This document shows, piece by piece, positions 1 to 64,000 of a DNA stretch of 64,000 bases. Origin of the DNA: Tragulus kanchil (Eukaryota > Chordata > Mammalia > Artiodactyla > Tragulidae); the NCBI GenBank assembly GCA_022376925.1, contig JAIOJX010000004.1, positions 744,001 through 808,000 of the forward strand, written 5' to 3'. Within the stretch, counting starts at the first letter, position 1; each line of letters begins with the position of its first letter. Below the pieces are notes generated by a model. That model saw nothing but the letters and a program-made list of their open reading frames with translations, searched no databases and was not told the DNA's origin. A program made the position numbers and the translations under genes.

Positions 1-1021
1 TGTGAGTGGGTGTGTTTATGTCCTCCACTGAATTCCACTAAAGCTATTAATCTTATCAGTAAGACTGAATATATTCAAGTTTACATAATTTTTTTTCTTC
101 TTTTTCCTTTTAAACCACACATTTTATTTTGGTATAAACTTCTGGTTCCCCATTGGCTTTTTAAGGTTCTGTGGGATTTTCTTTGTTTTTATTGTTTTTG
201 CTTTGTTTCTATATATTTCTCTATATACTTATCTCTGTTTTAATTTTTAAAACATTTTATTGGTACTACTACTTCCTCTATCATTCTTTGCTTTCTCTGA
301 TGCTTCTTTCCTATAGGACTATACTCTAATAGATACAAATCTTTATCGCCCTATAGTTAACTGTGCAGTATTATTCTATATTTCTCTTCTATCCTCCCTT
401 TCTCTTTTTCCCTTTTTACACCATATTTCGTAGTCTGTTCTATCCTCATTACCTTATCGCCAATGGGGACACTGCTTTAGCATTCTTCTCCAATTGGTGC
501 TCTACTTAGTTTGGTTATTAACTGGTGGATATCATTCGTGGTTTTCTCTCTTCGCCGTGCTAAAGTATGCTACTGTATTTTTGGTTGGAAAGTTTCGGTT
601 ATGTTATAGCTGTATATGTTTGTGTGTATAAGTCAATACGCTAGATAGTATTTGCACAATATTTTAATTGCCATTTGTCAAAGGTATACCTTCTGTTTCT
701 CATTCGCGTATATATGTTTTAATATCATTTAATGCCATAACAAACCAGCCATGAAATCTTCATTCCCTGGTAAGGAAACAAGTTCCAGAGCTTTAAGGAG
801 GGAGCACTGACTCCACAACTCTACAATACTAGAGAACACCTAATACTAGAGAGCAGTATACAAGTGAGAATGTCAACAAAGGTAATCACTGGTATGCAAG
901 TCCTGACAACACCCAACCACCAGCATCACCGAGAATAAGAAGCCCCCTCCAAAAAACAAACACCAAGAGATATAACTCAAGGAAATCACAAACAAAGTCA
1001 GTTAAAAAATTAATAATAACA
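1..1021 (+). mobile_element. 5' region of young L1 element (L1-A), 5' end not resolved
   Basis: T-rich sequence leading directly into an L1 ORF1 start at 1022. Composition and position match the 5' UTR of the second L1 in this window (T-rich stretch 37741-38100). The boundary with flanking DNA was not found, so the element may begin before the window. Part of this region is repeated from 1537 by duplication D1. Confidence 0.6.
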
Positions 1022-2643
1022 ATGAAACGGCAGAGAAATACCACACAAGCGAAGGAACAATCCACAAACACACAAGATCAAATCAACGAAGAGGATTTGG
1101 ACAAACTTTCTGAAAGTGATTTCAGAAGAATAATAGTAAAGATGATCAGAGACACTGAAAACAGAATGTTAGAGAAATTGTAAGACACAACTAACACACT
1201 GAATAAAGAAATACAAGAACTTGCCAAAAAAGTAACAGAGACAAACAACTCCACTGCTGGACTGAAAAACACTGTAGAAGGAATCAAGAGCAGAGTATCT
1301 GAGACAGAAGGCCAGATAAGTGAGCTGGAAGATAGAATGGTGGAAGTAACTGCTGAAAAACAGAATCTAGCTCAAAGAATGAAAAGAGCAGAGGATAGCC
1401 TCAGAGACCTCTGGCATAATATCAAACGCACCAATATTCGAATTATAGGGGTTCCAGAAGAAGAAGAAAAAAAGAAAGGCTATGAGAAAAATTTTGAAAA
1501 TTCATGAAAACCCAAGGAAAAGAATAGTCCATCAAGTCCTCATTACCTTATCGCCAATGGGGACACTGCTTTAGCATTCTTCTCCAATTGGTGCTCTACT
1601 TAGTTTGGTTATTAACTGGTGGATATCATTCGTGGTTTTCTCTCTTCGCCGTGCTAAAGTATGCTACTGTATTTTTGGTTGGAAAGTTTCGGTTATGTTA
1701 TAGCTGTATATGTTTGTGTGTATAAGTCAATACGCTGGATAGTATTTGCACAATATTTTAATTGCCATTTGTCAAAGGTATACCTTCTGTTTCTCATTCG
1801 CTTACATATGTTTTAATATCATTTAATGCCATAACAAACCAGCCATGAAATCTTCATTCCCTGGTAAGGAAACAAGTTCCAGAGCTTTAAGGAGGGAGCA
1901 CTGACTCCACAACTCTACAATACTAGAGAACACCTAATACTAGAGAGCAGTATACAAGTGAGAATGTCAACAAAGGTAATCACTGGTATGCAAGTCCTGA
2001 CAACACCCAACCACCAGCATCACCCAGAATAAGAAGCCCCCTCCAAAAAACAAACACCAAGAGATATAACTCAAGGAAATCACAAACAAAGTCAGTTAAA
2101 AAATTAATAATAACAATGAAACGGCAGAGAAATACCACACAAGCGAAGGAACAATCCACAAACACACAAGATCAAATCAACGAAGAGGATTTGGACAAAC
2201 TTTCTGAAAGTGATTTCAGAAGAATAATAGTAAAGATGATCAGAGACACTGAAAACAGAATGTTAGAGAAATTGTAAGACACAACTAACACACTGAATAA
2301 AGAAATACAAGAACTTGCCAAAAAAGTAACAGAGACAAACAACTCCACTGCTGGACTGAAAAACACTGTAGAAGGAATCAAGAGCAGAGTATCTGAGACA
2401 GAAGGCCAGATAAGTGAGCTGGAAGATAGAATGGTGGAAGTAACTGCTGAAAAACAGAATCTAGCTCAAAGAATGAAAAGAGCAGAGGATAGCCTCAGAG
2501 ACCTCTGGCATAATATCAAACGCACCAATATTCGAATTATAGGGGTTCCAGAAGAAGAAGAAAAAAAGAAAGGCTATGAGAAAAATTTTGAAGAGATTCT
2601 AGTTGAAAATTTCCCCAACATGGGAAAAGAAATAGTCCATCAA
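443..2643. repeat. Direct duplication D1 (443-1536 and 1537-2643), offset 1094 bp
   Basis: The sequence starting at 443 (tcctcattaccttatcgcc) starts again at 1537 and runs on almost unchanged through the L1-A 5' UTR and ORF1 start. The last about 45 bases of copy 1 (1495-1537) are a scrambled, shortened version of 2589-2643. Likely an assembly overlap. Confidence 0.93.
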
Positions 2644-3020
2644 GTCCAAGAAGCACAAAGAGTACCATACAGAATCAATCCAAGAAGAAACACAGCAAGA
2701 CACATATTAATGAAGCTAACACAAATTAAACACAAGGACAGAATTCTCAACGCAGCAAGGTAAGAGCAACTAGTGACATGCAAGGGAAAGCCCATACATT
2801 TAACAGCTGATTTTCAACAGAAACTCTGCAGGCCAGAAGGGAATGGCAGGACACATTTAAATGGCTAAAAGAGAATAATCTGCAACCAGGAATCCTCTAC
2901 CCTGCAAGGATCTCCTTCAAAATGGATGGAGAAATCAAAAGCTTTACAGATAAGCAAAAATTAAAAGAATTTAGTCACACCAAACCAGCCTTACAACAAG
3001 TGTTAAAGGGACTTATATAG
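2116..3020 (+). pseudogene. L1-A ORF1 (RNA-binding chaperone), broken
   Basis: ORF1p is the trimeric coiled-coil RNA-binding protein of L1. The ATG at 2116 opens the same N-terminus (MKRQRN) as the intact L1-B ORF1. A TAA at 2275-2277 (codon 54) interrupts it. The frame then stays open through the coiled coil and the RRM core with the conserved NIRIIGVPEEEE block near 2526, and the RNTARHI block near 2690, to a second stop at 2761-2763. Beyond that, homology to the C-terminal domain continues with a frameshift to the original terminator at 3018-3020. A partial earlier copy with the same first stop starts at 1022 because of D1. Clearly non-functional as ORF1. Confidence 0.85.
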
Positions 3021-3080
3021 ACAACAAGTATAAAAGAAGGAGAAGATCCACGAAACAAAGCCATCATAATATCTAAGAAG

Positions 3081-6000
3081 ATGACAATAGGATCATTTGT
3101 ATCAATAATTACCTTGAATATAAATGGACTAAATGCCCCAACCAAAAGACACAGAGTGGCTGAATGGATTCAAAAACACGACCCATACATATGCTGCCTC
3201 CAGGAAACTCACTTCAGACCTAGAGACACTCATAGACTGAAAGTGAGAGACTGGAAAAGGATATCCCATGCAAGTGGAAATCAGAAGGAACCTGGAGTAG
3301 CAATCCTCATATCAGACGAAATAGACCTCAAAATAAAGAAGACTAGAAGAAACAAGGCAGGACACTACATAATGATCAAGGGATCGATCCAAGAAGACAT
3401 AACAATCATAAATATCTATGCACCCAATGCAGGAGCACCCCAATACATAAGACAAACACTTTCAGACATAAAAGAAGACACCAACACTAACACAATCATA
3501 GTAGGAGACTTTAACACTCCTCTCACACCAATGGACAGATCATCCAAACAGAAACTTAATAAAGAAACACAAGCCTTCAATGCCACACTAGAAGAAATGG
3601 ACCTCTTTAATAACTTTAGGACTTTCCATCCAAAAGCAGAAGAATACACTTTCTTCTCAAGTGCTCATGGAACATTCTCCAGGATAGACCACATCTTGGG
3701 CCACAAATCAAACCTCAGTCAATTCAAGAAAATTGAAATTATATCAACCATTTTCTGGGATCACAATGCAATGAGACTAGAGATCAAATACAGGGAAAAA
3801 ACCGCTAAAAACACAAACACATGGAGACTAAACAGCACATACCTAAAAAACCAACTGATTACCGAGGAAATCAAAGGAGAAATAAAAAACTTCCTAGAAG
3901 AAAACGACAATGAACACACGACAGTGCAAAACCTATGGGATACCACAAAAGCAGTTCTAAGAGGGAAGTTTATAGCAATTCAATCCTACCTCATGAAACC
4001 AGGAAAATCTCAAACAGACGACCTAACCTTACGCTTAAAACAACGGGAGAAAGAAGAACAAAAACACCCCAAAGCCAGCAGAAGAAGGGAAATCATAAAG
4101 ATCAGAGCAGAAATAAATGATAAAGAAATGAAAGAAACAAGAGTAAAGATAAATAAAACAAAAAGATGGTTCTTCAAAAAGGTAAATAAAATCGACACAC
4201 CACTGGCCAGACTCATCAAGAAAAAGAGAGAGAAGAACCAGATCACCAAAATCAAAAGCAAAAAAGGAGAGATTACAACAGATAATGCAGAAATCCAAAG
4301 GATTCTAAGAGACTATTATGAACAACTCTATGGCAACAAACTAGACAACATGGAAGAAATGGACAGTTTCTTAGAGAAGATTAATCTCCCAAGACTCAAC
4401 CAGGAAGAAATAGAAACTATGCACAAACCAATCAGAAGCTCAGAAATCGACGCTGTGATCAAAAATCTACCCAAAAATAAAAGCCCAGGGCCAGATGGTT
4501 TCACAAGTGAATTCTACCAAACATTTAAAGAAGAGCTAATGCCTGTCCTTCTAAAACTCTTGCAAAAAATTGCAAAGGAAGGAACACTTCCAAATACATT
4601 CTATGAGGTCGCCATTACCCTGATACCAAAGCCAGGCAAAGACAACATAAAAAAAGAAAATTATAGCCCAATTTCACTGATGAATCTAGACGCCAAAATC
4701 CTCAACAAAATCCTAGCAAACAGAATTCAACAACACATCAAAAAGCTCATACATCACGATCAAGTCAGGTTCATCCCAGGCATGCAAGGATTCTTCAGTA
4801 TCCACAAATCAATCCATGTGATACACCATATCAACAAATTGAGAGACAAAAATCACATGATTATCTCAATAGATGCAGAAAAAGCCTTCGACAAAGGACA
4901 GCATCCATTTATGATAAAAACTCTTCAAAAAATGGGCATAGAAGGAACCTGTCTCAACATAGTGAACGCCATCTATGAGAAGCCCACAGCAAACATTATC
5001 CTCAACGGTGAAGAACTCAAAGCATATCCTCTAAGATCAGGAACAAGACAAGGGTGTCCACTTTCACCACTCTTAATTCAACATAGTCCTGGAAGTTCTA
5101 GCAACAGCAGTAAGAGAAGAGAAAGAAATCAAAGGAATCCAGATTGGAAAGGAAGAAGTCAAACTCTCTCTTTTTGCAGATGACATGATATTATACATAG
5201 AAAATCCCAAAGACGCTATTACAAAGCTACTAGAGTTAATCAGCGAATTCAGCAAAGTCAAAGGATGCAAAATCAATACACAGAAATCACTGGCATTCCT
5301 ATATACAAACAATGAAAAATCAGAAAATGAAATCAAAGAGACAATCCCCTTCACCATTGCAACCAAAAGAATCAAATATCTAGGAATAAACCTACCCAAA
5401 GACACAAAAGAACTGTATACTGAAAATTACAAGACACTCATGAGAGACATTAAAGAAGACTTAAACAGATGGAGAGATATTCCATGTTCCTGTGTCGGAA
5501 GAATCAATATTGTGAAAATGACCATACTACCAAATGTCATCTATAGTTTCAGTGCGATCCCTATCAAACTTCCAATGACATTCTTCACAGAACTAGGCCA
5601 AAGAATGACACAGTTCATGTGGAAGCACAAAAGACCTCGAATAGCCAAAGCAATCCTGAGGAGGAAGAATGGAACTGGAGAGGTCAGCCTCCCCAACTTC
5701 AGACTCTACTACAAAGCAGCAGTTATCAAGACAGTATGGTGCTGGCACAAAAACAGAAATATCGACCAATGGAACAAGATCGAGAACCCAGAGGTAAACC
5801 CACACATCTATGGATACCTTATTTTTGACAAAGGAGGCGAACATATAAAATGGGACAAAGACAGCCTCTTCAACAAATGGTGCTGGGAGAATTGGACAGC
5901 TACATGCAAAATAATGAAGTTGGAACATTCCCTTACACCATACACAAAGATCAACTCAAAAGGGATTCAAGACCTACACATAAGACCTGAAACCCTATAA

Positions 6001-7632
6001 CTCTTAGAGGAGAATATAGGCAAAACATCCAAGGACACAGATCAAAGCAAGATCTTCTCTGACCCACCTACTAGAATAGTGGAACTAAAAACAAAAATGA
6101 ACATGTGGGACCTAATGAAACTGAAAAGCTTTTGTACAGCAAAAGAAATCACAAAAAAGCTGAACAGACAGCCCACAGAATGGGAGAAAATCATAACAAA
6201 TGAAACAACAGAAGAAAATGAAATCAAAGAGACAATCCCCTTCACCATTGCAACCAAAAGAATCAAATATCTAGGAATAAACCTACCCAAAGACACAAAA
6301 GAACTGTATACTGAAAATTACAAGACACTCATGAGAGACATTAAAGAAGACTTAAACAGATGGAGAGATATTCCATGTTCCTGTGTCGGAAGAATCAATA
6401 TTGTGAAAATGACCATACTACCAAATGTCATCTATAGTTTCAGTGCGATCCCTATCAAACTTCCAATGACATTCTTCACAGAACTAGGCCAAAGAATGAC
6501 ACAGTTCATGTGGAAGCACAAAAGACCTCGAATAGCCAAAGCAATCCTGAGGAGGAAGAATGGAACTGGAGAGGTCAGCCTCCCCAACTTCAGACTCTAC
6601 TACAAAGCAGCAGTTATCAAGACAGTATGGTGCTGGCACAAAAACAGAAATATCGACCAATGGAACAAGATCGAGAACCCAGAGGTAAACCCACACATCT
6701 ATGGATACCTTATTTTTGACAAAGGAGGCGAACATATAAAATGGGACAAAGACAGCCTCTTCAACAAATGGTGCTGGGAGAATTGGACAGCTACATGCAA
6801 AATAATGAAGTTGGAACATTCCCTTACACCATACACACAGATCAACTCAAAAGGGATTCAAGACCTACACATAAGACCTGAAACCCTAAAACTCTTAGAG
6901 GAGAATATAGGCAAAACATCCAAGGACACAGATCAAAGCAAGATCTTCTCTGACCCACCTACTAGAATAGTGGAACTAAAAACAAAAATGAACATGTGGG
7001 ACCTAATGAAACTGAAAAGCTTTTGTACAGCAAAAGAAATCACAAAAAAGCTGAACAGACAGCCCACAGAATGGGAGAAAATCATAACAAATGAAACAAC
7101 AGGCAAAGAATTAATCTCCAAAATCTACAAGCAACTCAGACAACTCAGCACTGGAAAAATGAACAACCCAATCTAAAAATGGGAAAAGGACCTAAACAGA
7201 CACCTCTCCAAAGAGGACATACAGATGGCCCAAAAACACATGAAATGATGCTCAACTTCACTTATAATTAGAGAAATGCAAATCAAAACTACATTGAGAT
7301 ATCACCTCACACCCATCAGAATGACCATCATCCACAAATCAACAGACAATAAATGCTGGAGAGGGTGTGGAGAAAAGGGAACACTCCTGCATTGCTGGTG
7401 GGATCGTAGATTGATACGGCCTCTATGGAAGACATTCTGGAGATTTCTTCAAAAACTGAAAATAGAAGCACCATACGACCCAGCCATCCCACTCTTAGGC
7501 TTGTACCCTGATGAAATCAAATCTCAAAGAAGCACCTGTATCCCAATGTTCATTGCAGCTCTCTATACAGTAGCTAGAACATGGAAGCAACCTAGATGCC
7601 AATCGACGAAGGAATGGATACAAAAGCACTAG
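3081..7632 (+). pseudogene. L1-A ORF2 (endonuclease/reverse transcriptase), broken
   Basis: ORF2p provides endonuclease, reverse transcriptase and a C-terminal Cys-rich domain for retrotransposition. The ATG at 3081 follows ORF1 by 60 bp. The APE-type endonuclease comes first ([27 protein letters not shown]). The usual SDH near residue 226 is WDH (TGG at 3756-3758), which hits a normally conserved serine. The RT domain follows, with SPGPDGF near 4485 and catalytic FADD at about 5173-5184. A frameshift near 5070 separates the RT fingers from FADD. Further stops lie at 5998-6000, 7174-7176, 7246-7248 and 7630-7632. The Cys-rich tail ([14 protein letters not shown]) lies near 7358. D2 and D3 repeat internal parts; the C-terminal part recurs at 8051-8713. 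Confidence 0.9.
5323..7104. repeat. Direct duplication D2 (5323-6213 and 6214-7104), unit 891 bp
   Basis: The block starting gaaaatgaaatcaaagag at 5323 restarts at 6214. It is the shortest unit of the series and is a multiple of three, so the ORF2 frame survives. Copy 1 has TAA at 5998-6000 where copy 2 reads AAA (6889-6891). Confidence 0.93.
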
Positions 7633-8960
7633 TACATATATACAATGGAATACTACACAGCTGTAAAGAGAAATGCAGAAGAATCAGCCCTAATGAGGTG
7701 GCTGGATCTAGAACATATCATCAAAAGTGAAGTCAGTCATAAAGAGAAGGACAAATACAGTATATTAACACACATATATGGAATCTATTAGGATGATGAT
7801 GATGATACACACAGTGAAGCGGAAAGACAGATACGGGCTATGGACATTGTGGGGAAGGACAGAGTGGACAGGAACCAAAAGAATTGGACAGCTACATGCA
7901 AAATAATGAAGTTGGAACTTTTGATCCTCAAAAGGGATTCAAGACCTACACATAAGACCTGAAACCCTATAACTCTTAGAGGAGAATATAGGCAAAACAT
8001 CCAAGGACACAGATCAAAGCAAGATCTTCTCTGACCCACCTACTAGAATAGTGGAACTAAAAACAAAAATGAACATGTGGGACCTAATGAAACTGAAAAG
8101 CTTTTGTACAGCAAAAGAAATCACAAAAAAGCTGAACAGACAGCCCACAGAATGGGAGAAAATCATAACAAATGAAACAACAGGCAAAGAATTAATCTCC
8201 AAAATCTACAAGCAACTCAGACAACTCAGCACTGGAAAAATGAACAACCCAATCTAAAAATGGGAAAAGGACCTAAACAGACACCTCTCCAAAGAGGACA
8301 TACAGATGGCCCAAAAACACATGAAATGATGCTCAACTTCACTTATAATTAGAGAAATGCAAATCAAAACTACATTGAGATATCACCTCACACCCATCAG
8401 AATGACCATCATCCACAAATCAACAGACAATAAATGCTGGAGAGGGTGTGGAGAAAAGGGAACACTCCTGCATTGCTGGTGGGATCGTAGATTGATACGG
8501 CCTCTATGGAAGACATTCTGGAGATTTCTTCAAAAACTGAAAATAGAAGCACCATACGACCCAGCCATCCCACTCTTAGGCTTGTACCCTGATGAAATCA
8601 AATCTCAAAGAAGCACCTGTATCCCAATGTTCATTGCAGCTCTCTATACAGTAGCTAGAACATGGAAGCAACCTAGATGCCAATCGACGAAGGAATGGAT
8701 ACAAAAGCACTAGTACATATATACAATGGAATACTACACAGCTGTAAAGAGAAATGCAGAAGAATCAGCCCTAATGAGGTGGCTGGATCTAGAACATATC
8801 ATCAAAAGTGAAGTCAGTCATAAAGAGAAGGACAAATACAGTATATTAACACACATATATGGAATCTATTAGGATGATGATGATGATACACACAGTGAAG
8901 CGACGGAAAGACAGACGTGGACAGTGGACATATGGACATTGTGGGGAAGGAACAGAGGGT
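6780..8960. repeat. Direct duplication D3 (6780-7880 and 7881-8960), offset 1101 then 1081 bp
   Basis: gaattggacagctacatgc at 6780 recurs at 7881. About 20 bp are missing just inside copy 2 (near 7919), which changes the offset. The end of copy 1 (7820-7880) is a shortened, garbled form of 8900-8960. Confidence 0.92.
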
Positions 8961-9187
8961 GGGAGGCGTAAAGGAAGTAGCATGAAGGCCTGTACTATCA
9001 TAAGTGAAGAAAATAGCTCTAGTCATTGCTCTGTGAGAAAGAGGACCCTTCAGGGGTGCTGTGTGATGGTCGGGAGGGGTGGGAAGGGAGGGATATACAT
9101 ATGACTAATCTGGGGACATGCACATCTGTAAACAAAACTCTGTAAATGTGAAAAGTAAAATAAAGGTTTTTAAAAAAAAAAAAAAAG
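8714..9187 (+). mobile_element. L1-A 3' UTR and poly(A) tail
   Basis: From the last ORF2 stop (8711-8713) the sequence runs through an L1-type 3' UTR to an AATAAA-like signal (aaaataaagg near 9158) and an A-rich tail at about 9168-9187. Homologous to 45731-46119 of L1-B. D4 repeats the tail at about 10260-10275. Confidence 0.8.
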
Positions 9188-10930
9188 AAAGGATAGGGAA
9201 AAGCTTCCAGCATAGATACTGGAGAGGGGATAGAAGAGTATCCCCGCTTTGCCAGGTTAGGCATGACAATTTGTATTTTCCAGTCGGTTATCAAAACAAT
9301 AGCTTAATGTTGTAAAGTCATTCCAGTCCTACATTCACAACATGAGATTAGCCAGGGGATAATCTCCGGGCTAGGTGAGATAAGACCTTTCTAGGCCCAC
9401 AGCATCAACATAAGACAGTAAACTTAGTTTGGGGTTGATCTTATCATAACAAATATTTCCAGTTAGAAAAACACCTGTCCTTCTTTTTGTCCCTCACCGT
9501 CTCCTCTTTATCAAATCTGCCTATGAACACCTTTCATTCTGAACCCCTTTCAGTGCTAGGGTTTTTATGGGAAATTATGTATATAAACCTAACTGAAAAA
9601 AAAAATGATGTTCTAAAGAAGAAAATTGACTGCCTCTGGGACAGGGACAGGGACAGAGGGAAAGAAGATGGCTAGAGAAAGCATGTATTGAGAGGTGGAA
9701 GAGGATGTGGAGGAGGGCTCATGCTGGACAGCTTTTGTCAGGAAAGCTGATGATGGCATCTTCTGTACAGTCGAGGTGCTGTGATGTATTGAAAGTTTAA
9801 AAAAAAAACGATTATAGTAATACATGAAATCTACAGCGGGAAAAAACAGAAGAATCAGCCCTAATGAGGTGGCTGGATCTAGAACATATCATCAAAAGTG
9901 AAGTCAGTCATAAAGAGAAGGACAAATACAGTATATTAACACACATATATGGAATCTATTAGGATGATGATGATGATACACACAGTGAAGCGACGGAAAG
10001 ACAGACGTGGACAGTGGACATATGGACATTGTGGGGAAGGAACAGAGGGTGGGAGGCGTAAAGGAAGTAGCATGAAGGCCTGTACTATCATAAGTGAAGA
10101 AAATAGCTCTAGTCATTGCTCTGTGAGAAAGAGGACCCTTCAGGGGTGCTGTGTGATGGTCGGGAGGGGTGGGAAGGGAGGGATATACATATGACTAATC
10201 TGGGGACATGCACATCTGTAAACAAAACTCTGTAAATGTGAAAAGTAAAATAAAGGTTTTTAAAAAAAAAAAAAGAAAGGATAGGGAAAAGCTTCCAGCA
10301 TAGATACTGGAGAGGGGATAGAAGAGTATCCCCGCTTTGCCAGGTTAGGCATGACAATTTGTATTTTCCAGTCGGTTATCAAAACAATAGCTTAATGTTG
10401 TAAAGTCATTCCAGTCCTACATTCACAACATGAGATTAGCCAGGGGATAATCTCCGGGCTAGGTGAGATAAGACCTTTCTAGGCCCACAGCATCAACATA
10501 AGACAGTAAACTTAGTTTGGGGTTGATCTTATCATAACAAATATTTCCAGTTAGAAAAACACCTGTCCTTCTTTTTGTCCCTCACCGTCTCCTCTTTATC
10601 AAATCTGCCTATGAACACCTTTCATTCTGAACCCCTTTCAGTGCTAGGGTTTTTATGGGAAATTATGTATATAAACCTAACTGAAAAAAAAAATGATGTT
10701 CTAAAGAAGAAAATTGACTGCCTCTGGGACAGGGACAGGGACAGAGGGAAAGAAGATGGCTAGAGAAAGCATGTATTGAGAGGTGGAAGAGGATGTGGAG
10801 GGAGGGCTCATGCTGGACAGCTTTTGTCAGGAAAGCTGATGATGGCATCTTCTGTACAGTGAGGTCTGGTATGTGTGTTCTGTGATGTATTGAAAGTTTA
10901 CAAAAAACATTAAGTATAAGCTGTATGATT
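8761..10930. repeat. Direct duplication D4 (8761-9850 and 9851-10930), offset 1090 bp
   Basis: agaatcagccctaatgagg begins at 8761 and again at 9851. The unit contains the L1-A 3' UTR plus about 650 bp of flanking DNA. The last about 75 bp of copy 1 (9770-9850) is a corrupted version of 10855-10930. Confidence 0.93.
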
Positions 10931-11214: not shown

Positions 11215-11761
11215 TATTTCCAACCCAGCCTTTGAAGAAGACAAGTGTTTTTCAACTAGGAGATAGTCCAGAACCTACACTCATTCTAGAGAGAGAAAAT
11301 GGAGCTAACCATCAAGGAGGACAAAAAGAATATAATACTGACATATGTAGCAACACACAGGGAAAACCAGGGGCACTTATTTGGCAAGGAGAACCAGGGC
11401 ATTGTAATCAGCCAGGAAAGCCAGAAATTCTTAATTAGCAAGGGAGGCCAGGAGTTTTCAATCAGCCTGGGAGTCTGCAAGGGAACTCAGGACAGCCTAA
11501 CCAAAAAGGGAATCCAGAAGCTTCTAATGAGCAAAGAAATCCAGGATCTTTTAGACAGCAGGGGAAGCCAGAGTAAACCAGCCAACAAGGGAAGCCAGGG
11601 TCCATTGGCCAGCAAGGGAAGCTAGATTTAACTAACCAGCAAGGGAAGCCAGGGTCAACCAGCCAGCAAGGGAAGCCAGGATCAACTAGCCAGCCAGTGA
11701 AGCCAGGGTCATCTAGCCAAAAAGGAAAGCCAGGATTGTCTAGTCAACAGGGAAAATTAAG
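11215..11761 (+). pseudogene. Q/G/K/P nonapeptide-repeat exon (MARCO-like?), with two stops
   Basis: An exon-like block sits between an acceptor (ttctag, AG 11213-11214) and a possible donor (AAG|GTATTT, GT 11762-11763). In the frame entering at phase 1 it encodes an acidic-to-polar leader and then about a dozen degenerate nine-residue units of the type SQQGKPGST, a Gly/Pro-rich pattern. Two in-frame stops (TAG 11436-11438, TAA 11574-11576) each need one substitution from the repeat consensus (CAG to TAG, TCA to TAA), so this is a decayed coding repeat. Reading through the donor meets TGA at 11805-11807. A MARCO-like gene (MARCOL) lies in the human SPINK cluster as I recall, which makes it a candidate relative; I could not verify this. 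The 3' part recurs at 12556-12941 through D5 with both stops unchanged. Confidence 0.5.
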
Positions 11762-13716: not shown

Positions 13717-13723
13717 CTGTGTC

Positions 13724-47184: not shown

Positions 47185-47216
<32 letters not shown>

Positions 47217-50182: not shown

Positions 50183-53100
50183 GTGAGTTAATTTTTCAGT
50201 CCAAGGTGAAATATTTTACATATCTTAGAAAACATGGGAAACAGCTTCTCTAATCTAGTAATGAAGGAGGTGTTTTTTTTTTTTTTCTTTTTAGTTGAGT
50301 TTGTAAATCTTAAACTGATAAACTGCAAAAGGGCATATTACAAATGTCTTTTTAAAATTGCACCGGTGGGTTACTTATTCTCATTTCCCACTTCAGACAA
50401 GTGGAGACAGAAGAGTTGGTTAGAATAGGCATTAGAACTTTGCTCTTTGTTTTACAACATGAACATGACCTATGTATCTTTGTTTTTGGCAGGCAGATTG
50501 TTAAAAGCAAACATATGCAGAGGAATGATCTTTTTCTAGGTCTGGTATAGCTTGATATTCTGATTTTTTTTTTTAACCACCCATTCTGAATCTCCTATGA
50601 TATCTTCAAAGAAATACAGTAGGAGTTCAATAAATACATAAAATTAATTTTAATGGAGTTAGAATAATTCAGAATTTTTAAATATTTTCAAATTTGGTAA
50701 TGTTTTGTGAGTTTTTGTTTTACTAATTGCAGGAAAGGGGGTCTCTAGGACGCAATTGCATGTGTTTCTGCTCCTAAGAAATATGAGCCTTGTTTACTAA
50801 AAATAATTCTTCCCTCCACTTCCCTTTCTCCTCCTGTTCTTTTTCTCCCTCCACCTCATTCTCCTTCTCTCTTCTCCTTCTCCCTTTCTCCTTCTCCTTG
50901 TTCATCTCCTCCCCTGCCTCTTCCCCAACTCCTCCTTCATTTTTAACTTTCTCTTTTTTGTCTATGTGTTGGTTGCAGAAAGCGCTTTTGCACCTATGTC
51001 AGATTTCAGACCTCCGGTAAGTTAATGCTGATGGGGGTTGAAAAAAGATAAGTAATTAAGTTTCCTATATTATAAGTGTTAACAGCAAAATTCATCAAAA
51101 TCTGAGCATCAGAGAGGTCTTTCCAAAAGTAAAAAGATAGTGTCAGTATTACACTAGGGTCAAAAATAGAAACTTAGCCATACAAAGCCATCTGCCATAG
51201 ACAGCAGAAAAACATGCATGCCCTATTACACAAAAATCTAATTAATGGGTATAAATGTGTACAGGCTTTATACAAGCCTCTAACAAAGGTTGAAGATGTT
51301 TAGATTAGTAGTATTCATCTTAGCAAAACAAAGGAAAAAAGAATCAGCCTAGATATATATTTAAGGATGGATAATATAGTGAAAATTTCTATATATTTAC
51401 GTAGTATATTACATGAAAGGTGAAAAAAAACTTTAGCTTTGAATATCTGAATAAACAGTCATGTGTTTAAAAAGCAGATAATGTAGCAGGCACACAGTAT
51501 TTTTCACTTATGTCAATTACCAAAACTGTCAACACTAAATAAACTGCACAAGCATACACATATTTAGTTGGAATTATCAAGAAAGATAGGGCATGAGAAA
51601 AGAGAAATCTAGTTTCATCATTTCTTCTTGAATTTAAAAGGGAAGTGAAGATGATGGTCACTAAATTACAAAAACACATTTAGCCAGTTTTATGACCTCT
51701 TTAAAAAAAAATCACAGGTTTATAAAAATAATAATATTTTATTTTTAAGTGGGATATATGTTAGTTTTATAAGTTCTAGTGCTATAAGTATTAGTTTTTA
51801 AAGGTAAATATAGGTAGGTGGCTTCCCTGGTGGCTCATTGGTAAAGAATCTGCCTACCAATGCAGGAAACATGGGTTCTATTCCTGATCACGGAAGATCA
51901 CACAGGCCTCGGAGCAACTAATCCCACATGTTCTAACTATTGAACCTATGCTCTAGAGCCAGGGAACCACAGCTACTGAGCCCACATGCCCAAATTACTG
52001 AACTCTGCATGTCCTAGAGTCCATGTTCCACAGCAAGAGTGGACACTGTGAGTACAGAGTAGCCCCCACTCGCCACAACTAGAGAAAGCCCACACAGCAA
52101 AGCCAAAAATAAATAAAATTGCTTTTGAAAAAACCTAAGTAAAATATATATTTCCAGTTTTGATGCATGGTACTTCATATCAAGACTAAATAAATTTTAC
52201 TCAGACTTTCACTCCCTGATGATTTTATGTTGTCTGTCTACATTTAACAGCCAGACTGTAAACAGTATACAGAAACCTGCACCAAAAAATATGATCCAGT
52301 CTGTGCAAGTGATGGACAAACTTATGGCAATGAATGCACTTTCTGCAACGAAAAGATGTAAGCACACGATAGTAAATACTTGGTCTTCCAAGGCATGAAG
52401 AAATTATCACAAGGTGATGGTAAAATCTGTGAATTCGGTACAAATGCATCTAATTTCCTTTCATGGGTATTTCCAATCACAAAAGTTTTGCACATTTAAT
52501 CCCCAAAGAGGCATGTGTTTCTGCAGGACTTCTAACACAGTCTCCAATCTCTCCTCTCTCAGATCTGGGTGGGTCCCAAACCTGAGTCAGGACTGAGCAC
52601 GTAGAAGAGTCCAGTGGCCCCTTAGAAGGGGACGGGACATGTGCCAGATCCTAGGAGCAAGCAGAGTCCATCTGCTTCTAAGGAAGAGAAACACAGCCAC
52701 TCTATCTTGTTCCCTTTACAAATCCTTCTTACTGAAAATATCTTTGGTGTCTTTTATGTTTCACATCCAAATTCTATTCTGCATGCATAGTATCTACATC
52801 TCTGCACCATGGACATGACCCCAATCTGTACGATCGATCAATGGTAGAACTTAAAGCATTCAGCACAGTTTTCTCAGGGATACTGCACTGGGAATTTAAA
52901 ATATTCCTTTTTAAATAAAAATTTTATTTTGGAGTAATTTTAGACTCACAGAAAAATTTCAAAGTCAGTACCAAGTTTTTGTATACTTTATGCAGTTTCT
53001 TCTAAGAATAATTCATTATGGAAGCCTGCCATACATATCAAAACTAAGAAATTAACATTGGTTTATCAGTATTAGCTAATCTACAGGATTTGTTTGGATA

Positions 53101-53238
53101 TCCCATTTTTTCCATTAATATTTTTAAAAATGCAGTGTGCTTTTTTATTCCTTAAAACTATTTAATGTTTTTCTCTCTTTCTTTCTTTATAGGAATAAAG
53201 ATCCAAATATTTATTTTGAACATTTTGGTGAATGTTGA
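50122..53238 (+). CDS. SPINK-B: secreted Kazal-type protease inhibitor, 4 coding exons, 83 aa
   Basis: A complete small secreted serine-protease inhibitor. Coding exons 50122-50182, 50979-51016, 52251-52357 and 53193-53238 (252 nt with stop) join in phases 1, 0 and 2 with GT-AG borders throughout. The product has a signal peptide ([20 protein letters not shown]), a short linker, and one Kazal domain with six cysteines: C1 in PDC, C2 six residues on, CTKKYDPVC (seven between C2 and C3), ten to C4 (NEC), then TFC (C5), and a final GEC (C6). By SPINK1 numbering P1 is Lys (CTK-K), suggesting trypsin-like targets. It does not match the human SPINK1, 6, 7, 9, 13 or 14 sequences as I remember them, so it may be a lineage member without a human orthologue. 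No disabling mutation. The terminal exon recurs at 54288 through D15. Confidence 0.88.
50808..50958 (+). repeat. Pyrimidine-rich CTTCTC tract before SPINK-B exon 2
   Basis: About 150 bp of nearly pure C/T with ccttctccctttctcc-type repeats, ending about 20 bp before the exon 2 acceptor. Confidence 0.85.
50979..51016 (+). CDS. SPINK-B coding exon 2 (linker)
   Basis: 38 nt between acceptor ttggttgcag and donor CCG|GTAAGT. Encodes [13 protein letters not shown] together with the last base of exon 1; the signal cleavage site is likely near its start. Confidence 0.8.
51017..51820. other. SPINK-B intron 2, nothing further recognised
   Basis: AT-rich intron sequence before a SINE; no RNA gene or coding motif seen. 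Confidence 0.4.
51822..52132 (+). mobile_element. CHR-2 type SINE
   Basis: Head gcttccctggtggctcattg, B box region gggttctattcctgatc, then the CHR-type series of aactactgagcc-like units, agtagcccccactcgccaca and an AAATAAAT tail. This copy has the standard CHR 3' half, unlike those at 34320 and 60405. Confidence 0.8.
52251..52357 (+). CDS. SPINK-B coding exon 3 (Kazal core)
   Basis: 107 nt, acceptor catttaacag, donor AGAT|GTAAGC. Encodes C1 to C5 including [15 protein letters not shown]. Confidence 0.88.
52905..53130 (+). mobile_element. Ancient L1-type repeat in SPINK-B intron 3
   Basis: attttagactcacagaaaaa, gtatactttatgcagtttct and aacattggtttatcagtatt follow a common old mammalian LINE 3' pattern. 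Recurs at about 54000-54225. Confidence 0.4.
53193..53238 (+). CDS. SPINK-B terminal coding exon
   Basis: 46 nt from acceptor ctttctttatag to TGA 53236-53238, encoding [14 protein letters not shown]. The last Cys is C6. Confidence 0.85.
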
Positions 53239-53523
53239 ATATTGATGAAGCTCCTTGTAATTTGGCTTTTACCCCAATCATTTTGTGGTAATGCTCTACA
53301 GGCAATTAGTCTTCTTCGTCAGAGCCTAAAATTCATAGACGACCAGGTCAATTCTATGAAACAGAAGTTATTAATAGAATGTAGAACATTCAGATTCTTT
53401 CCAAAACTAATTTCCTGTGATTTCAGGATTTTTATCCTCTGTGTTCAATTTATTCAATGACAGTTTGGAAAAACTAATGTCAATTTCATGCTTGATGACA
53501 TAAAATCTAGTGTAATTTAAAAT

Positions 53524-53529
53524 AATAAA
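53524..53529 (+). promoter_or_regulatory. SPINK-B polyadenylation signal
   Basis: AATAAA 285 bases after the stop, in an AT-rich 3' UTR. Repeated at about 54619 through D15. Confidence 0.5.
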
Positions 53530-54287
53530 TATTTCACTCATTAAAATGCTAAAGGTATTATTTTTATTAAAATATCATTTCTTTTAACAAGGGGTTAAGA
53601 TATATACATACATTAGTAACTATAAACAAATATATATTTAACATTTTCAAAGATGAAATATTCCAAAATTATTTGGTATTCATCAAAAGTACAGATTCTT
53701 GAGCTCCTTTCTATCCTACTGAATCAAAGTCTCAAAGAAAAAAAGACTCGTAAGTTGAATTTTAATCAGCACCTAAGGAAGAGAAACACAGCCACTCTAT
53801 CTTGTTCCCTTTACAAATCCTTCTTACTGAAAATATCTTTGGTGTCTTTTATGTTTCACATCCAAATTCTATTCTGCATGCATAGTATCTACATCTCTGC
53901 ACCATGGACATGACCCCAATCTGTACGATCGATCAATGGTAGAACTTAAAGCATTCAGCACAGTTTTCTCAGGGATACTGCACTGGGAATTTAAAATATT
54001 CCTTTTTAAATAAAAATTTTATTTTGGAGTAATTTTAGACTCACAGAAAAATTTCAAAGTCAGTACCAAGTTTTTGTATACTTTATGCAGTTTCTTCTAA
54101 GAATAATTCATTATGGAAGCCTGCCATACATATCAAAACTAAGAAATTAACATTGGTTTATCAGTATTAGCTAATCTACAGGATTTGTTTGGATATCCCA
54201 TTTTTTCCATTAATATTTTTAAAAATGCAGTGTGCTTTTTTATTCCTTAAAACTATTTAATGTTTTTCTCTCTTTCTTTCTTTATAG

Positions 54288-54333
54288 GAATAAAGATCCA
54301 AATATTTATTTTGAACATTTTGGTGAATGTTGA
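54288..54333 (+). CDS. Second copy of SPINK-B terminal exon (D15)
   Basis: Identical acceptor, frame and stop to 53193-53238. Part of the duplicated block and probably not a separate exon. Confidence 0.6.
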
Positions 54334-54870
54334 ATATTGATGAAGCTCCTTGTAATTTGGCTTTTACCCCAATCATTTTGTGGTAATGCTCTACAGGCAA
54401 TTAGTCTTCTTCGTCAGAGCCTAAAATTCATAGACGACCAGGTCAATTCTATGAAACAGAAGTTATTAATAGAATGTAGAACATTCAGATTCTTTCCAAA
54501 ACTAATTTCCTGTGATTTCAGGATTTTTATCCTCTGTGTTCAATTTATTCAATGACAGTTTGGAAAAACTAATGTCAATTTCATGCTTGATGACATAAAA
54601 TCTAGTGTAATTTAAAATAATAAATATTTCACTCATTAAAATGCTAAAGGTATTATTTTTATTAAAATATCATTTCTTTTAACAAGGGGTTAAGATATAT
54701 ACATACATTAGTAACTATAAACAAATATATATTTAACATTTTCAAAGATGAAATATTCCAAAATTATTTGGTATTCATCAAAAGTACAGATTCTTGAGCT
54801 CCTTTCTATCCTACTGAATCAAAGTCTCAAAGAAAAAGAGACTCGTAAGTTGAATTTTAATCAGCACCTA

Positions 54871-55500
54871 AGGTTAATGTTATGATCACAAATGTTAGAC
54901 AATAAAAATCTTAATTAGTTAATTAGAATTTGTTCTATAACTGAATTTGGTGAAAATCTATTCAAAGATACTACAGCATTTCTGACACTTGGAAGAATAA
55001 TTTACATGTTATTTTTCTTTCTCTTTCATAAATAAGCCAAAGGTAGCTGAGTGATCTTCAAATAGGCTAGCTTTCTTCAACCTAGGCTATTGATATATAA
55101 TTTGGTCTAAGTTTGATGATAGATTTCCATTTCTTTCCATATCCAAACTAATAAGCAACAGTTAAGTGGCTAACTGTTCATTTAAGCTTTATTATAGTAT
55201 CAGAAATGTAGAGATAATATTATCTTTAATATATTTTGAGGGAACAGCCAAACTGTTTCCAAAAAAGGGGAATCATTTTCATCCCCACTAGGCCTGTGTA
55301 AGAGTTCCAATTTCTTCATATTCTCAACCCAAATCAATTTTTTTAATTTTTTAAATTATATTTATCCTAGTGGTAGTGAATCTGTATTTCATTGGGGTTA
55401 GATTTACATCCCCTTAGTATTATCAGTGTTTAATGTCTTTTCATGTGCTTCTTGGCCACTTGTATAACTTCTCTAGAGAAATGTCTATTTAAATTTTTTG
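54871..55500. other. No gene recognised
   Basis: AT-rich intergenic sequence between SPINK-B and the BovB fragment. Confidence 0.4.
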
Positions 55501-55511
55501 CCTTTAAAAAA

Positions 55512-56040
55512 ATTGCTGTTGTGTAAGTCATGTCTGACTCTTTGCAACACCATGAACTGCAGCACGCCAGGCTTTCCTGTCTTTCATTATCTCCTGGGGT
55601 TTGCTCAAACTCATGTCCATTATGTCAGTGGTGCCATCCAACCGTCTCATCCTCTGTCACCCCTTCTCCTCCTGCCCTCAATCTTCCCATCATAAGGGTC
55701 TTTTCCAATGTGTCAGCTCTTCCCATTGGTGGTCGAATATTGAAGTTTCACCTTCAGCATCAATCCTTCCAATGAATATTTCCTGGTCTGATCTCCTTGC
55801 AGTCCAAGGGAATCTTAAGAGTCTTCTCCAGTACCACAGTTAGCATCAATTCTTCAGCAATCAGTCTTCTTTATGGTCCAAATCTCACATTCATACATCA
55901 CTACTGGAAAAACCATAGCTTCAATTATACAGACCTTTGTTGGCAAAGTGATGTCTCTGCTTTTTTAATACACTGTCTAGGTTTGTCGTAGCTTTTCTTC
56001 CAAGAAGCAATCATCTTTTAAGTTCATGCAGCCAGGAAAT
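55512..56040 (-). mobile_element. BovB LINE 3' end, reverse
   Basis: The + strand reads the complement of the BovB/Bov-A 3' region: gtcatgtctgactctttgca, actgcagcacgccaggcttt, tccaaccgtctcatcctctg, ccaaatctcacattcataca. 5'-truncated. BovB is abundant in ruminants among mammals. Recurs at 56631-57159 through D16. Confidence 0.88.
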
Positions 56041-56630
56041 AGCCCTCCATAAATACAGTTAACAGGTCTTTGCCAAGGAAGCAAAGGCAATACAATGGGG
56101 AAAGATAGTTTTCTCAACAAATAGTGCTGGAAAAAAAACTGGACTTACACTTAAGATAAGTTATTTTTCTTTATTATAGTATCTAAAGCATTTCTTCAAC
56201 CTAGGCTATTGATATATAATTTGGTCTAAGTTTGATGATAGATTTCCATTTCTTTCCATATCCAAACTAATAAGCAACAGTTAAGTGGCTAACTGTTCAT
56301 TTAAGCTTTATTATAGTATCAGAAATGTAGAGATAATATTATCTTTAATATATTTTGAGGGAACAGCCAAACTGTTTCCAAAAAAGGGGAATCATTTTCA
56401 TCCCCACTAGGCCTGTGTAAGAGTTCCAATTTCTTCATATTCTCAACCCAAATCAATTTTTTTAATTTTTTAAATTATATTTATCCTAGTGGTAGTGAAT
56501 CTGTATTTCATTGGGGTTAGATTTACATCCCCTTAGTATTATCAGTGTTTAATGTCTTTTCATGTGCTTCTTGGCCACTTGTATAACTTCTCTAGAGAAA
56601 TGTCTATTTAAATTTTTTGCCTTTAAAAAA

Positions 56631-57159
56631 ATTGCTGTTGTGTAAGTCATGTCTGACTCTTTGCAACACCATGAACTGCAGCACGCCAGGCTTTCCTGTC
56701 TTTCATTATCTCCTGGGGTTTGCTCAAACTCATGTCCATTATGTCAGTGGTGCCATCCAACCGTCTCATCCTCTGTCACCCCTTCTCCTCCTGCCCTCAA
56801 TCTTCCCATCATAAGGGTCTTTTCCAATGTGTCAGCTCTTCCCATTGGTGGTCGAATATTGAAGTTTCACCTTCAGCATCAATCCTTCCAATGAATATTT
56901 CCTGGTCTGATCTCCTTGCAGTCCAAGGGAATCTTAAGAGTCTTCTCCAGTACCACAGTTAGCATCAATTCTTCAGCAATCAGTCTTCTTTATGGTCCAA
57001 ATCTCACATTCATACATCACTACTGGAAAAACCATAGCTTCAATTATACAGACCTTTGTTGGCAAAGTGATGTCTCTGCTTTTTTAATACACTGTCTAGG
57101 TTTGTCGTAGCTTTTCTTCCAAGAAGCAATCATCTTTTAAGTTCATGCAGCCAGGAAAT
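56631..57159 (-). mobile_element. BovB LINE 3' end, second copy (D16)
   Basis: Near-identical duplicate of the fragment at 55512, within the repeated block. Confidence 0.88.
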
Positions 57160-57280
57160 AGCCCTCCATAAATACAGTTAACAGGTCTTTGCCAAGGAAG
57201 CAAAGGCAATACAATGGGGAAAAAGATAGTTTTCTCAACAAATAGTGCTGGAACAACTGGACATATACATTCAAAAACAG

Positions 57281-59420
57281 TAATCTAGGCACAGATCTTA
57301 CACTCTTCCAAAAAACAGATCACAGATCTATGTGTTTAATGCAAAACTGTAAAACTTTTAAAAGATAACATATGGAAAAACATAAATGACCTCGGGTATG
57401 GTGGCTTTTTACATAAAATACCAAAGGCTTGAGCCATGAAAGAAATAATTAACACACTGGAATTCATTAAAATGAAAAATTCAGTTCTGTGAAATATCAA
57501 GAGAAAGACACTAAACTACAGAGTGGGAGAAAGAGTTGCAAAAGATCCATTTGATAAAGGACTATCATCCAAGATATGCAAAGTTCACTTGAATCTCAAT
57601 GACAAGAAAACAAAGAACCCTAAAATGGCCATTCTACCCAAAACAATCTACACAGTTAAAATGATCCTAAAAATTATCCATAACATTTTTCACTGAACTA
57701 GAACCAATTATCCAAAAATTTATATGGAACTACAAAAGAACCAGAATTGCCAAAGCAATCCAAAAGGAAAACAACAAAGTTGGAAGCATAACCCTCGCAG
57801 ACTTCAGACAATACTTCAGAGCTAGAGTAATCAAAACAGCGTGGTACTGGCACAAACACAGACATGCAGATCAATTAAAGAGTTTATAGAGCCCAGAAAT
57901 GAACTTACATACCAGCAGTCAATTGCCAATTTATGACAAAAGTTGCAAAAATAGACAAATAGAGAAGACAGTCTTTTTACCAATTGGTGCTGGGAGAGCA
58001 GGATGGCTATATATCAGTGAGTGAGATTGGAACACTCCCTCAGAGCTGATAGAAAAATAAATTCAAAATGATTTAAAGGCTAAAGTCTAGGACATGGCAC
58101 CGTAAAACTCCTGGAAGAGAATGTAGGTAAAACATCCTATGATATTTTAAATCATAGCAACACCCACAACCACAAAATGAGAGAAAGTACTTGTAAATTA
58201 TGCAACTGACAAGGGCTTACTTCCCAAAATATACAAACAGCTTATAGAACTCAATATCAAAACAATGAACAACTTAATCAAAAATGAGGAATAAGAACTA
58301 GGTAGACATTTCAGGAAAGATGATATACAGATAGCCATGCTCCAAGTCAGTAATCTAGGCACAGATCTTACACTCTTCCAAAAAACAGATCACAGATCTA
58401 TGTGTTTAATGCAAAACTGTAAAACTTTTAAAAGATAACATATGGAAAAACATAAATGACCTCGGGTATGGTGGCTTTTTACATAAAATACCAAAGGCTT
58501 GAGCCATGAAAGAAATAATTAACACACTGGAATTCATTAAAATGAAAAATTCAGTTCTGTGAAATATCAAGAGAAAGACACTAAACTACAGAGTGGGAGA
58601 AAGAGTTGCAAAAGATCCATTTGATAAAGGACTATCATCCAAGATATGCAAAGTTCACTTGAATCTCAATGACAAGAAAACAAAGAACCCTAAAATGGCC
58701 ATTCTACCCAAAACAATCTACACAGTTAAAATGATCCTAAAAATTATCCATAACATTTTTCACTGAACTAGAACCAATTATCCAAAAATTTATATGGAAC
58801 TACAAAAGAACCAGAATTGCCAAAGCAATCCAAAAGGAAAACAACAAAGTTGGAAGCATAACCCTCGCAGACTTCAGACAATACTTCAGAGCTAGAGTAA
58901 TCAAAACAGCGTGGTACTGGCACAAACACAGACATGCAGATCAATTAAAGAGTTTATAGAGCCCAGAAATGAACTTACATACCAGCAGTCAATTGCCAAT
59001 TTATGACAAAAGTTGCAAAAATAGACAAATAGAGAAGACAGTCTTTTTACCAATTGGTGCTGGGAGAGCAGGATGGCTATATATCAGTGAGTGAGATTGG
59101 AACACTCCCTCAGAGCTGATAGAAAAATAAATTCAAAATGATTTAAAGGCTAAAGTCTAGGACATGGCACCGTAAAACTCCTGGAAGAGAATGTAGGTAA
59201 AACATCCTATGATATTTTAAATCATAGCAACACCCACAACCACAAAATGAGAGAAAGTACTTGTAAATTATGCAACTGACAAGGGCTTACTTCCCAAAAT
59301 ATACAAACAGCTTATAGAACTCAATATCAAAACAATGAACAACTTAATCAAAAATGAGGAATAAGAACTAGGTAGACATTTCAGGAAAGATGATATACAG
59401 ATAGCCACCAGGAATATGAA
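57281..59420. repeat. Direct duplication D17 (57281-58350 and 58351-59420), offset 1070 bp
   Basis: taatctaggcacagatctta occurs at 57281 and 58351. The end of copy 1 (agatagccatgctccaagtc) lacks about 24 bases that are present in copy 2 at about 59408-59431. Confidence 0.93.
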
Positions 59421-61104: not shown

Positions 61105-63004
61105 TTCATCTTCTCTAAAATGTCCTGTCCAAGAAGGACTGATCTACTATAGGCATCTCTAAAGGTGTACAGAAGTCAAAGAGCAAGAACATTTTCTGGA
61201 CTGTCATATATGAGCTCTTCAACTAAATTGGCATGAAATATTACCAATCTCAAAGTTTCCTTCTATATATTCTAGATTTCTCCCTTGCAAAATATAGCAG
61301 GCAGGATTAGGGTGACAAATGACCACCCAACACAGAACTTAAGCACAGAGTTTAAATGTTTTATCCTCACTTATCACAAACATGAAAGATGGTTACAGAC
61401 TCTAACTCTCATATTTACAATAAGAAAACTGAGGATTATGCCGTTTGAATACTAAGTCTAGATGACTCACTAATAGATGGTGTTTCTACTTGGATCCTTC
61501 TCCTGCAGTGCTCTTTCCACTGATTCAGGCTGAAGAAGATGATTAGGAGAATATAACAGCGAAAAAAGTCTCCAAACAAAAAAAGCCTTCAGAATCTCAG
61601 AAACATCTCAGAAATATTCCCAAACATCTCTAATGTAAAATCAAATGTTTACCATATAATTTAATGAATGCACTGTTCAGCCATTCAGTCTCAACTTCAT
61701 ACCCCACCTTTCACTCTCTCATGCTCCAAAAAGTAACTTTTGGAGATCTAATAATCAGCATAGTGATTATAGTCAACACTACACTGTAATAAACTTCATT
61801 GTTCTTATTACAAAGAAAAACAATCAATTACCATGATAGAGATGTTAGGTAACACTAGAGTGGTGGTCATAATGAAACAGATAAACAACCAAATCAACAC
61901 AGCCTACACCCTAAATTTATGCTATGGTGCACATCAATCATCTCAATTAAAAACAAATAATTTGTACCCTCTCTTCAAGATAAGCTTCCCCTAAACTCAG
62001 GTTCACAGGAGACTCCTCTGGGAGCTTCTATACTGTTCCACTACCCATGTCTACTCTTCTAACAATTGATTCTCAATTTTTCAGGACAGTGAATTCATTA
62101 TTTTTACCAGTTCCCAGATAATTGTAATAAGCAAATAGTTTTAAAACTTTGGGGAGCTTAGGCCTTTAATTATCTGATTACCATTCCCAGACTCTTCTCT
62201 ATCCTGCTTGATTCTCTTTTCCTTTTTCAATTCACTTGCTTGGAAAGTTTTCACCTCTTCTCTCTATCTTAGGATCTCTAGTCCTTCCCCATACTTCTAG
62301 GGACATGAGATCAAGTTGTCCCCAAGCCTCCTACTGAGGGAAGATTAATTGAGAATTACCTGTGAAGCATCTCTCCTGACCTACTTTACAGCCTCCAGTG
62401 AGGACACAGAATATCTCTGTGTCTTATCTGGGTCATCAGTCTTACCCCATCAAACTCCTGACCAGCAAAACAATAAAACAGACTGAGCTGGAAGGCAGTA
62501 GGTAAAGAGGAAGGTGAATGAGACAACCACAGTCTTCAGAGCTGTTGACCTCACTCCCCCGTGATCGCTCTATCAGGTAGGCCAGGTGGGGAATCTAGGA
62601 AGAGCATACCATATCCAGAGGATTGCTCCAGGTTAGTCTTTCCAGAAATAACTGTTCCTATTTCCTGAGGAAAATAATCAAGAGCCAAATGTGCACTGGT
62701 AATATGTACAACCAGGCTTCTTCTGGGGCGATGGAAAAGCTGAGTAATCATTTTTTTCCATTTTGTTAACAGACTGTTTTCCTGGGCTCTTTACATGTCT
62801 CTTTTAAATGTCTTCCAACAATGCTACCTTCTTTTATGGAATCGTAGGGTTGTGGAGGAGGCCAAAGGAAGAGCCACGTTAGATGGGAACAATTTCTTTA
62901 GAAGGAACTTTCTAGAACCTGACTCCAGATTCTTTTAGTCAAAAGTGGCATGTATCAGTGTTACAAGCACTCTTAAAAGTATCTTCCACGTACTTGATAA
63001 CAAC
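61105..63004 (+). other. SPINK-C upstream region, paralogous to SPINK-B upstream
   Basis: Collinear with 47620-50121 over several blocks: the aggactgatctac block at 61134, tctgtgtcttatctgg (62416) against agagtcttatctgctgg (49560), the donor-like caggtaggccaggtgggg (62575), and aagagccaaatgtgcactgg (62670) against aaagtgcatg. Indicates a tandem duplication that includes at least about 2 kb upstream of the gene. Confidence 0.65.
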
Positions 63005-64000
63005 ATGTCCTTCTCATCATGGATCAACCTCATTTTCATCATTGGCTTGACCTTTCATCTTTATTCTGGTGAGTAAATTTTTCACTTTTGGATGAAGCCA
63101 TTCACATATCATAGAAAAATGCAGGAAACAACTACCATTACAGAGGAATGGACGAGCTTGTGCTGGTGTACTGTTCCATCCCATATTTTGATTCTCAATT
63201 TTTCAGGACAGTGAATTCATTATTTTACCAGTTCCCAGATAATTGTAATAAGCAAATAGTTTTAAAACTTTGGGGAGCTTAGGCCTTTAATTATCTGATT
63301 ACCATTCCCAGACTCTTCTCTATCCTGCTTGATTCTCTTTTCCTTTTCAATTCACTTGCTTGGAAAGTTTTCACCTCTTCTCTCTATCTTAGGATCTCTA
63401 GTCCTTCCCCATACTTCTAGGGACATGAGATCAAGTTGTCCCCAAGCCTCCTACTGAGGGAAGATTAATTGAGAATTACCTGTGAAGCATCTCTCCTGAC
63501 CTACTTTACAGCCTCCAGTGAGGACACAGAATATCTCTGTGTCTTATCTGGGTCATCAGTCTTACCCCATCAAACTCCTGACCAGCAAAACAATAAAACA
63601 GACTGAGCTGGAAGGCAGTAGGTAAAGAGGAAGGTGAATGAGACAACCACAGTCTTCAGAGCTGTTGACCTCACTCCCCCGTGATCGCTCTATCAGGTAG
63701 GCCAGGTGGGGAATCTAGGAAGAGCATACCATATCCAGAGGATTGCTCCAGGTTAGTCTTTCCAGAAATAACTGTTCCTATTTCCTGAGGAAAATAATCA
63801 AGAGCCAAATGTGCACTGGTAATATGTACAACCAGGCTTCTTCTGGGGCGATGGAAAAGCTGAGTAATCATTTTTTTCCATTTTGTTAACAGACTGTTTT
63901 CCTGGGCTCTTTACATGTCTCTTTTAAATGTCTTCCAACAATGCTACCTTCTTTTATGGAATCGTAGGGTTGTGGAGGAGGCCAAAGGAAGAGCCACGTT
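62068..64000. repeat. Direct duplication D18 (62068-63189 and 63190-64000+), offset 1122 then 1120 bp
   Basis: gattctcaatttttcaggac occurs at 62068 and 63190. Copy 1 contains SPINK-C exon 1; copy 2 runs to the window edge, so a second exon 1 would be expected about 125 bp beyond it. Confidence 0.93.
63005..63068 (+). CDS. SPINK-C coding exon 1 (signal peptide); gene continues past the window
   Basis: ATG 63005 opens 21 codons plus one base (MSFSSWINLIFIIGLTFHLY, then S) and ends at donor TCTG|GTGAGT, the same phase and context as SPINK-B exon 1. Hydrophobic core LIFIIGLTF. The Kazal exons must lie downstream of 64000. Just before the ATG, SPINK-B has the acceptor cttccacag|act, whereas here the aligned bases are cttccacgtact, without the AG. 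Confidence 0.65.

Follow-up and report, generated by a model that had tools for sequence, protein, structure and literature searches.

Does the genome of Tragulus kanchil carry a dense series of tandem duplications, or was the series written by the process that assembled it? The question is raised by a stretch of 64,000 nucleotides (positions 744,001 to 808,000 of contig JAIOJX010000004.1, assembly GCA_022376925.1; hereafter the window, numbered from its first letter) in which eighteen segments of about 1.1 kb are each followed directly by a second copy. An earlier note made from the sequence alone had described these pairs, designated D1 to D18 along the window, and attributed them to un-collapsed overlap between adjoining contigs, or, if real, to an unprecedented local duplication process. 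From the analysis that follows, the eighteen doublings are almost certainly false tandem duplications produced by genome assembly, in which the overlaps of neighboring units were left unmerged. False duplication by assembly is a well-known class (PMC9516828), and the doublings are not a real biological feature.

Self-comparison of the window

The coordinates and core identities of the pairs were taken from a megablast alignment of the window against itself, which recovered all eighteen (18/18) head to tail and where the earlier note had placed them. The megablast offsets of D1 to D9 were 1094, 891, 1081, 1090, 1180, 1073, 1151, 1121 and 1130 bp, and those of D10 to D18 were 1105, 1101, 1102, 1082, 1094, 1095, 1118, 1070 and 1122 bp. 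The offset of D3 rose from 1081 to 1101 bp once its noisy end had been aligned, and the offsets first reported agree to about 11 bp, the largest gap being at D8 (1110 versus 1121). Refined offsets were 1094, 890, 1101, 1099, 1174, 1073, 1159, 1124 and 1131 bp for D1 to D9, and 1122, 1103, 1102, 1082, 1094, 1095, 1113, 1068 and 1137 bp for D10 to D18, where the value for D18 counts its non-matching head. Overall, they span 890–1174 bp with a median of 1,101.5 bp. Core identity of the matched pairs is 98.0–100%, and the doubled sequence totals approximately 19.8 of the 64 kb.

A second self-comparison was performed with blastn with the low-complexity filter on, retaining matches no shorter than 60 bp and no less than 96% identical. 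It returned 19 rows, every one direct and belonging to the D series; 17 correspond to pairs, and the other two to three-copy stretches described below. The one pair missing is D9, which falls outside these cut-offs. The claim that the copies are always direct was sustained by all 18 pairs and all 19 rows, and chance is ruled out as the source of kilobase matches at 98% identity or more. Repeats outside the D series do exist, namely two L1 elements at approximately 1–9 kb and 38–47 kb that are 86–90% alike.

Tiling of the assembly units

The seams between copies divide the window into units of 1,668–7,398 bp. The length of the overlaps is nearly constant, with a coefficient of variation (CV) of 5.4% that drops to 2.6% without D2, while the overlap starts lie anywhere between 567 and 6,296 bp apart (CV 73%). 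A length that is fixed and a position that is free point to a software parameter.

In six of the 17 complete units, the left and right overlaps of the unit themselves overlap, by 324, 252, 133, 281, 331 and 17 bp. For five of these six short units, megablast found that the flanking units share sequence directly. As a result of such intersecting overlaps within single short units, five stretches of approximately 100–335 bp occur three times, and the claim that there are always two copies needs qualification. A short unit with touching overlaps contributes nothing beyond its neighbors, which is the behavior of overlapping tiles.

Degradation at the abutting ends

Between many of the copies, megablast left unmatched spacers of up to ~65 bp. 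To locate the seams, each unit's terminal sequence was aligned to the interior of its neighbor, the left tail against the right unit and the right head against the left unit; by this alignment most spacers prove to be two degraded unit ends meeting at a single point. The error profile covers D1 to D17, with D18 excluded because its head is not collinear. At the end of the left unit, 12.5, 6.5 and 13.7% of columns differ at 0–20, 20–40 and 40–60 bp, respectively, and the corresponding values at the start of the right unit are 16.3, 8.3 and 11.9%. The rate is 1.5–3.7% at 60–100 bp from the ends and reaches 0.2% and 0.0% for left and right units at 100–150 bp. The interior, taken as everything beyond 150 bp from either end, has 48 differing columns out of 13,440; D12 accounts for 20 and the other pairs together for 28.

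The differences at the 34 unit ends comprise 191 deletions, 42 insertions and 56 mismatches (289 in total). Five or more differences are present at 17 of these ends, which are spread over 12 of the 17 seams. The earlier description of the copies as nearly identical is accurate for the interiors; the abutting ends are often degraded and D12 has 20 clustered mismatches. Apart from error-like differences the copies are near-identical, as in false duplication. With damage concentrated at two abutting ends, the pattern resembles the low-coverage ends of consensus pieces, and we know of no duplication process that would degrade precisely these two ends.

The L1 elements as an in-window control

The two L1 elements, whose seams lie at different L1 positions, allow three degraded unit ends and a clean one to be compared with a related sequence. 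Pfam identified L1 ORF1 and ORF2 domains in the window, consistent with its mammalian origin. By blastn, the L1 unit at 2111–6211 aligns unbroken to 41047–45131 and the next unit, 6213–7818, aligns to 44242–45847, so the stretch that is doubled in D2 is single-copy in the second L1. The tail of D1 is 68% identical to the second L1 while its inner copy is 86% identical, and the head of D3 is 79% identical while its inner copy is 94% identical. The clean head of D2 (96%) hardly differs from its inner copy (97%).

Proposed origin of the doublings

The sequence is best read as a chain of assembly units of ~1.7–7.4 kb each. Adjacent units have ~1.1 kb in common, since the same reads went into both over that stretch, and the units were almost certainly written end to end with the shared stretch left unmerged. 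The degraded ends at the seams, the redundant short units, the constant overlap with variable spacing and the L1 control all support un-collapsed overlap of adjoining pieces. The phrase adjoining contigs may be refined. Adjoining assembled pieces remain a good description, and the pieces appear to be consensus units from a single long-read layout rather than independent contigs: the window holds no N, leaving the seams gapless, even- and odd-numbered units are similar in the noise of their ends (8/17 and 9/17 noisy ends, p = 0.57), and the offset resembles a software node length.

The source is probably an assembler of the wtdbg2 type. Neighboring layout units of wtdbg2 share one node, and the overlap of nodes is limited to approximately 256 bp, or one bin. 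The units described here would be the edge consensuses of such a fuzzy-Bruijn graph, with neighbors sharing one node of 1,024 raw bases; had the join step failed, a doubling of that length would be expected. The ratio of the median overlap to this length (1,101.5 / 1,024) is 1.076, which is close to one node provided that the reads were deletion-biased, and would fit deletion-rich nanopore reads. Nanopore reads have more deletions and PacBio reads more insertions (PMC8590762). In published accounts, wtdbg2 picks a 1,024-bp sequence for each graph point (PMC7506008) and uses tiling 256-bp bins (PMC11831799), and node-length settings of 1536–2560 are multiples of 256 (PMC11087460, PMC11931762, PMC7831173). 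Its first program produces contigs as overlapping read sequences and its second program derives the consensus (PMC12037172).

Alternative explanations

A gap-filling or patching artefact, in which alternate units would be patches, each bringing ~1 kb of flank on either side and inserted untrimmed, is an unlikely but credible competitor. A fixed flank length would suit the constant ~1.1 kb overlap equally well, and there is a tendency for even-numbered units to be the shorter ones (median ~2.1 versus 4.4 kb, Mann-Whitney p = 0.074), which is weakly suggestive. Patching predicts noise on one kind of unit, however, and this is at odds with the balance between even and odd units noted above; three short units in a row with touching overlaps (U2, U3 and U4) are also awkward to explain as patches. 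Uncollapsed haplotypes, with two alleles placed in series, are very improbable. D12 with its 20 mismatches, 17 of which are transitions, has the appearance of such a pair, and D1, D2, D7 and D14 have a few interior differences; yet interior differences are nil or almost nil in most pairs, the matched core of D17 is 100% identical, and a constant 1.1 kb is not expected from the placement of alleles. That the animal itself carries recent tandem duplications here can be given almost no credence. Such duplications would account for the similarity of the copies and for their direct, adjacent arrangement, but for nothing more; in both copies the degraded bases lie where the two abut, and the three-copy stretches common to neighboring units are exactly what overlapping tiles would leave. 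To our knowledge, no sequence-blind process makes 18 copies of near-fixed length in 64 kb. A local replication or repair process that would lay down sequence-blind direct copies of ~1.1 kb, with errors concentrated at the junction, is just as remote, and no positive evidence for an unprecedented duplication process was found.

Several observations nevertheless sit uneasily with unmerged overlaps that differ only by noise at their ends. The seam point within a spacer was picked by best total alignment score, a choice that favors noisy ends. Half of the unit ends (17/34) have fewer than five differences, and five seams (D2, D6, D12, D13 and D15) are nearly clean. In the L1 comparison, the tail of D3 (64% versus 68% for the inner copy) decides nothing. 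The head of D10 (26744–27865 / 27866–28970, seam after 27865) is poorly explained by noise alone, as the right unit's first ~61 bp are scarcely alignable (20 mismatches, 19 deletions). In D18 (62066–62880 / 63188–64000), which is truncated by the end of the window, 307 bp heading the last unit (62881–63187) have no match in the partner and represent more than simple end noise; this head may possibly derive from a chimeric read. Approximately 177 bp of 62881–63187 are 75% like 50079–50246, so that the head contains a dispersed repeat. The interior mismatches of D12 (38079–39180 / 39181–40282, seam after 39180) are also no simple end noise. They fall at overlap positions 189–708 (~520 bp), after which the copies are identical up to the seam and the ends are clean; the two clusters are located at 38267–38788 and 39369–39890. 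These mismatches are real sequence variation and not read noise. Two alleles would account for them; so would another L1 copy, D12 being L1 sequence, if its reads were recruited here or used in polishing.

Other observations weigh against wtdbg2 in particular as the source of the unmerged overlaps. A scan of the nine seam spacings below 2.5 kb found no clear 256-bp step, the best R being 0.60 for a period of 244 bp. The node overlaps give a mixed picture, as three of the six (324, 281 and 331 bp) exceed 275 bp where a limit of ~256 bp would apply. In the reported benchmark, properly run wtdbg2 assemblies of HG002 had 158–2,226 structural errors genome-wide, and collapses made up 88.9% of errors above 1 kb across the assemblers tested (PMC8590762). 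With error counts this low and collapses predominant, a specific malfunction or setting must be assumed for wtdbg2.

Relation to known assembly errors

In homotype false duplication, under-collapsed copies of one locus are tied to sequence error and not to allelic difference (Ko et al. 2022, PMC9516828). The doublings resemble this type in being copies of one locus, which may share a scaffold, but differ in being of fixed length (~1.1 kb), serial and dense (18 in 64 kb). A gap between the copies, a usual sign of false duplication as presented in that paper, is absent here. The doublings also recall wtdbg2-type layouts, where overlapping read sequences and a graph of 1,024-bp points precede the consensus (PMC12037172, PMC7506008); overlaps are merged in a normal run, however, and here they are doubled. 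Like the expansion errors defined by Inspector (PMC8590762), they make the assembly longer than the genome. The HG002 errors in that report were mostly below 500 bp, with those above 1 kb mostly collapses, in contrast to the window, where all are expansions of ~1.1 kb. Narrow literature searches found no description of this dense, fixed-length artefact or of wtdbg2-type runs that leave overlaps doubled.

Should the artefact extend throughout this assembly, approximately 30% of the sequence would be false, with broken genes and retrotransposon frames and inflated copy number. Such doublings, direct, of fixed length, degraded where the copies abut and free of N, make a signature that is easily scanned for and could flag other assemblies.

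Pairs and seams along the window

The remaining pairs are given here as left and right copies with the last position before the seam. D1 (443–1536 / 1537–2644, seam after 1536) has 14 bases absent near the right end of its left unit, and D2 (5322–6211 / 6212–7102, seam after 6211) is the shortest overlap at 890 bp. Both unit ends are degraded in D3 (6779–7879 / 7880–8972, seam after 7879) and in D4 (8721–9819 / 9820–10916, seam after 9819). D5 (11364–12537 / 12538–13718) has its seam after 12537, and degenerate 27-bp tandem repeats are present in both of its copies, at 11406–11755 and 12586–12935. The seam of D6 (15148–16220 / 16221–17294, after 16220) has 3 differences, and that of D7 (17162–18320 / 18321–19475) lies after 18320. 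In D8 (21624–22747 / 22748–23857, seam after 22747) the right unit's left end lacks 14 bases, and in D9 (23577–24707 / 24708–25865, seam after 24707) the tail of the left unit lacks 41 bases.

D11 (30680–31782 / 31783–32865) has its seam after 31782, and D13 (39952–41033 / 41034–42114, seam after 41033) lies within L1. The last of the complete pairs are D14 (45298–46391 / 46392–47491, seam after 46391), D15 (52678–53772 / 53773–54867, seam after 53772), D16 (55052–56164 / 56165–57284, seam after 56164) and D17 (57268–58335 / 58336–59405, seam after 58335).

Other content of the window

The earlier note had placed doublings in exons as well as in repeats, which was not confirmed: a Pfam scan of 20 open frames, among many, identified domains in three L1 frames only and no landmark of a host exon. 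A search of the window for RNA families gave no matches at gathering thresholds. ARAGORN made one transfer RNA (tRNA) call at 20903–21003, which lies inside a repeat. This repeat (20846–21036), partly called tRNA-Gly by ARAGORN, consists of two tandem units with a 105-bp period that resemble a short interspersed element (SINE), and we take it to be a Bov-tA-like ruminant SINE; elements of this type in the window suggest a ruminant.

A 335-amino acid open frame with L1 ORF1 domains (39856–40860) is located entirely inside the unit at 39181–41033. Among the best 120 of 2,783 matches, its closest relatives reach 71%, followed by cetaceans (64–65%), Moschus (61%) and Capra (60%), and the best named ones are thus cetartiodactyl. 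Upstream of L1 ORF1, a GC-rich 19-bp unit is repeated seven times in tandem at 37118–37249 (99% matches), and CpG is raised around it with an observed/expected ratio of 0.75 for 36001–38000. This stretch is possibly the L1 promoter region.

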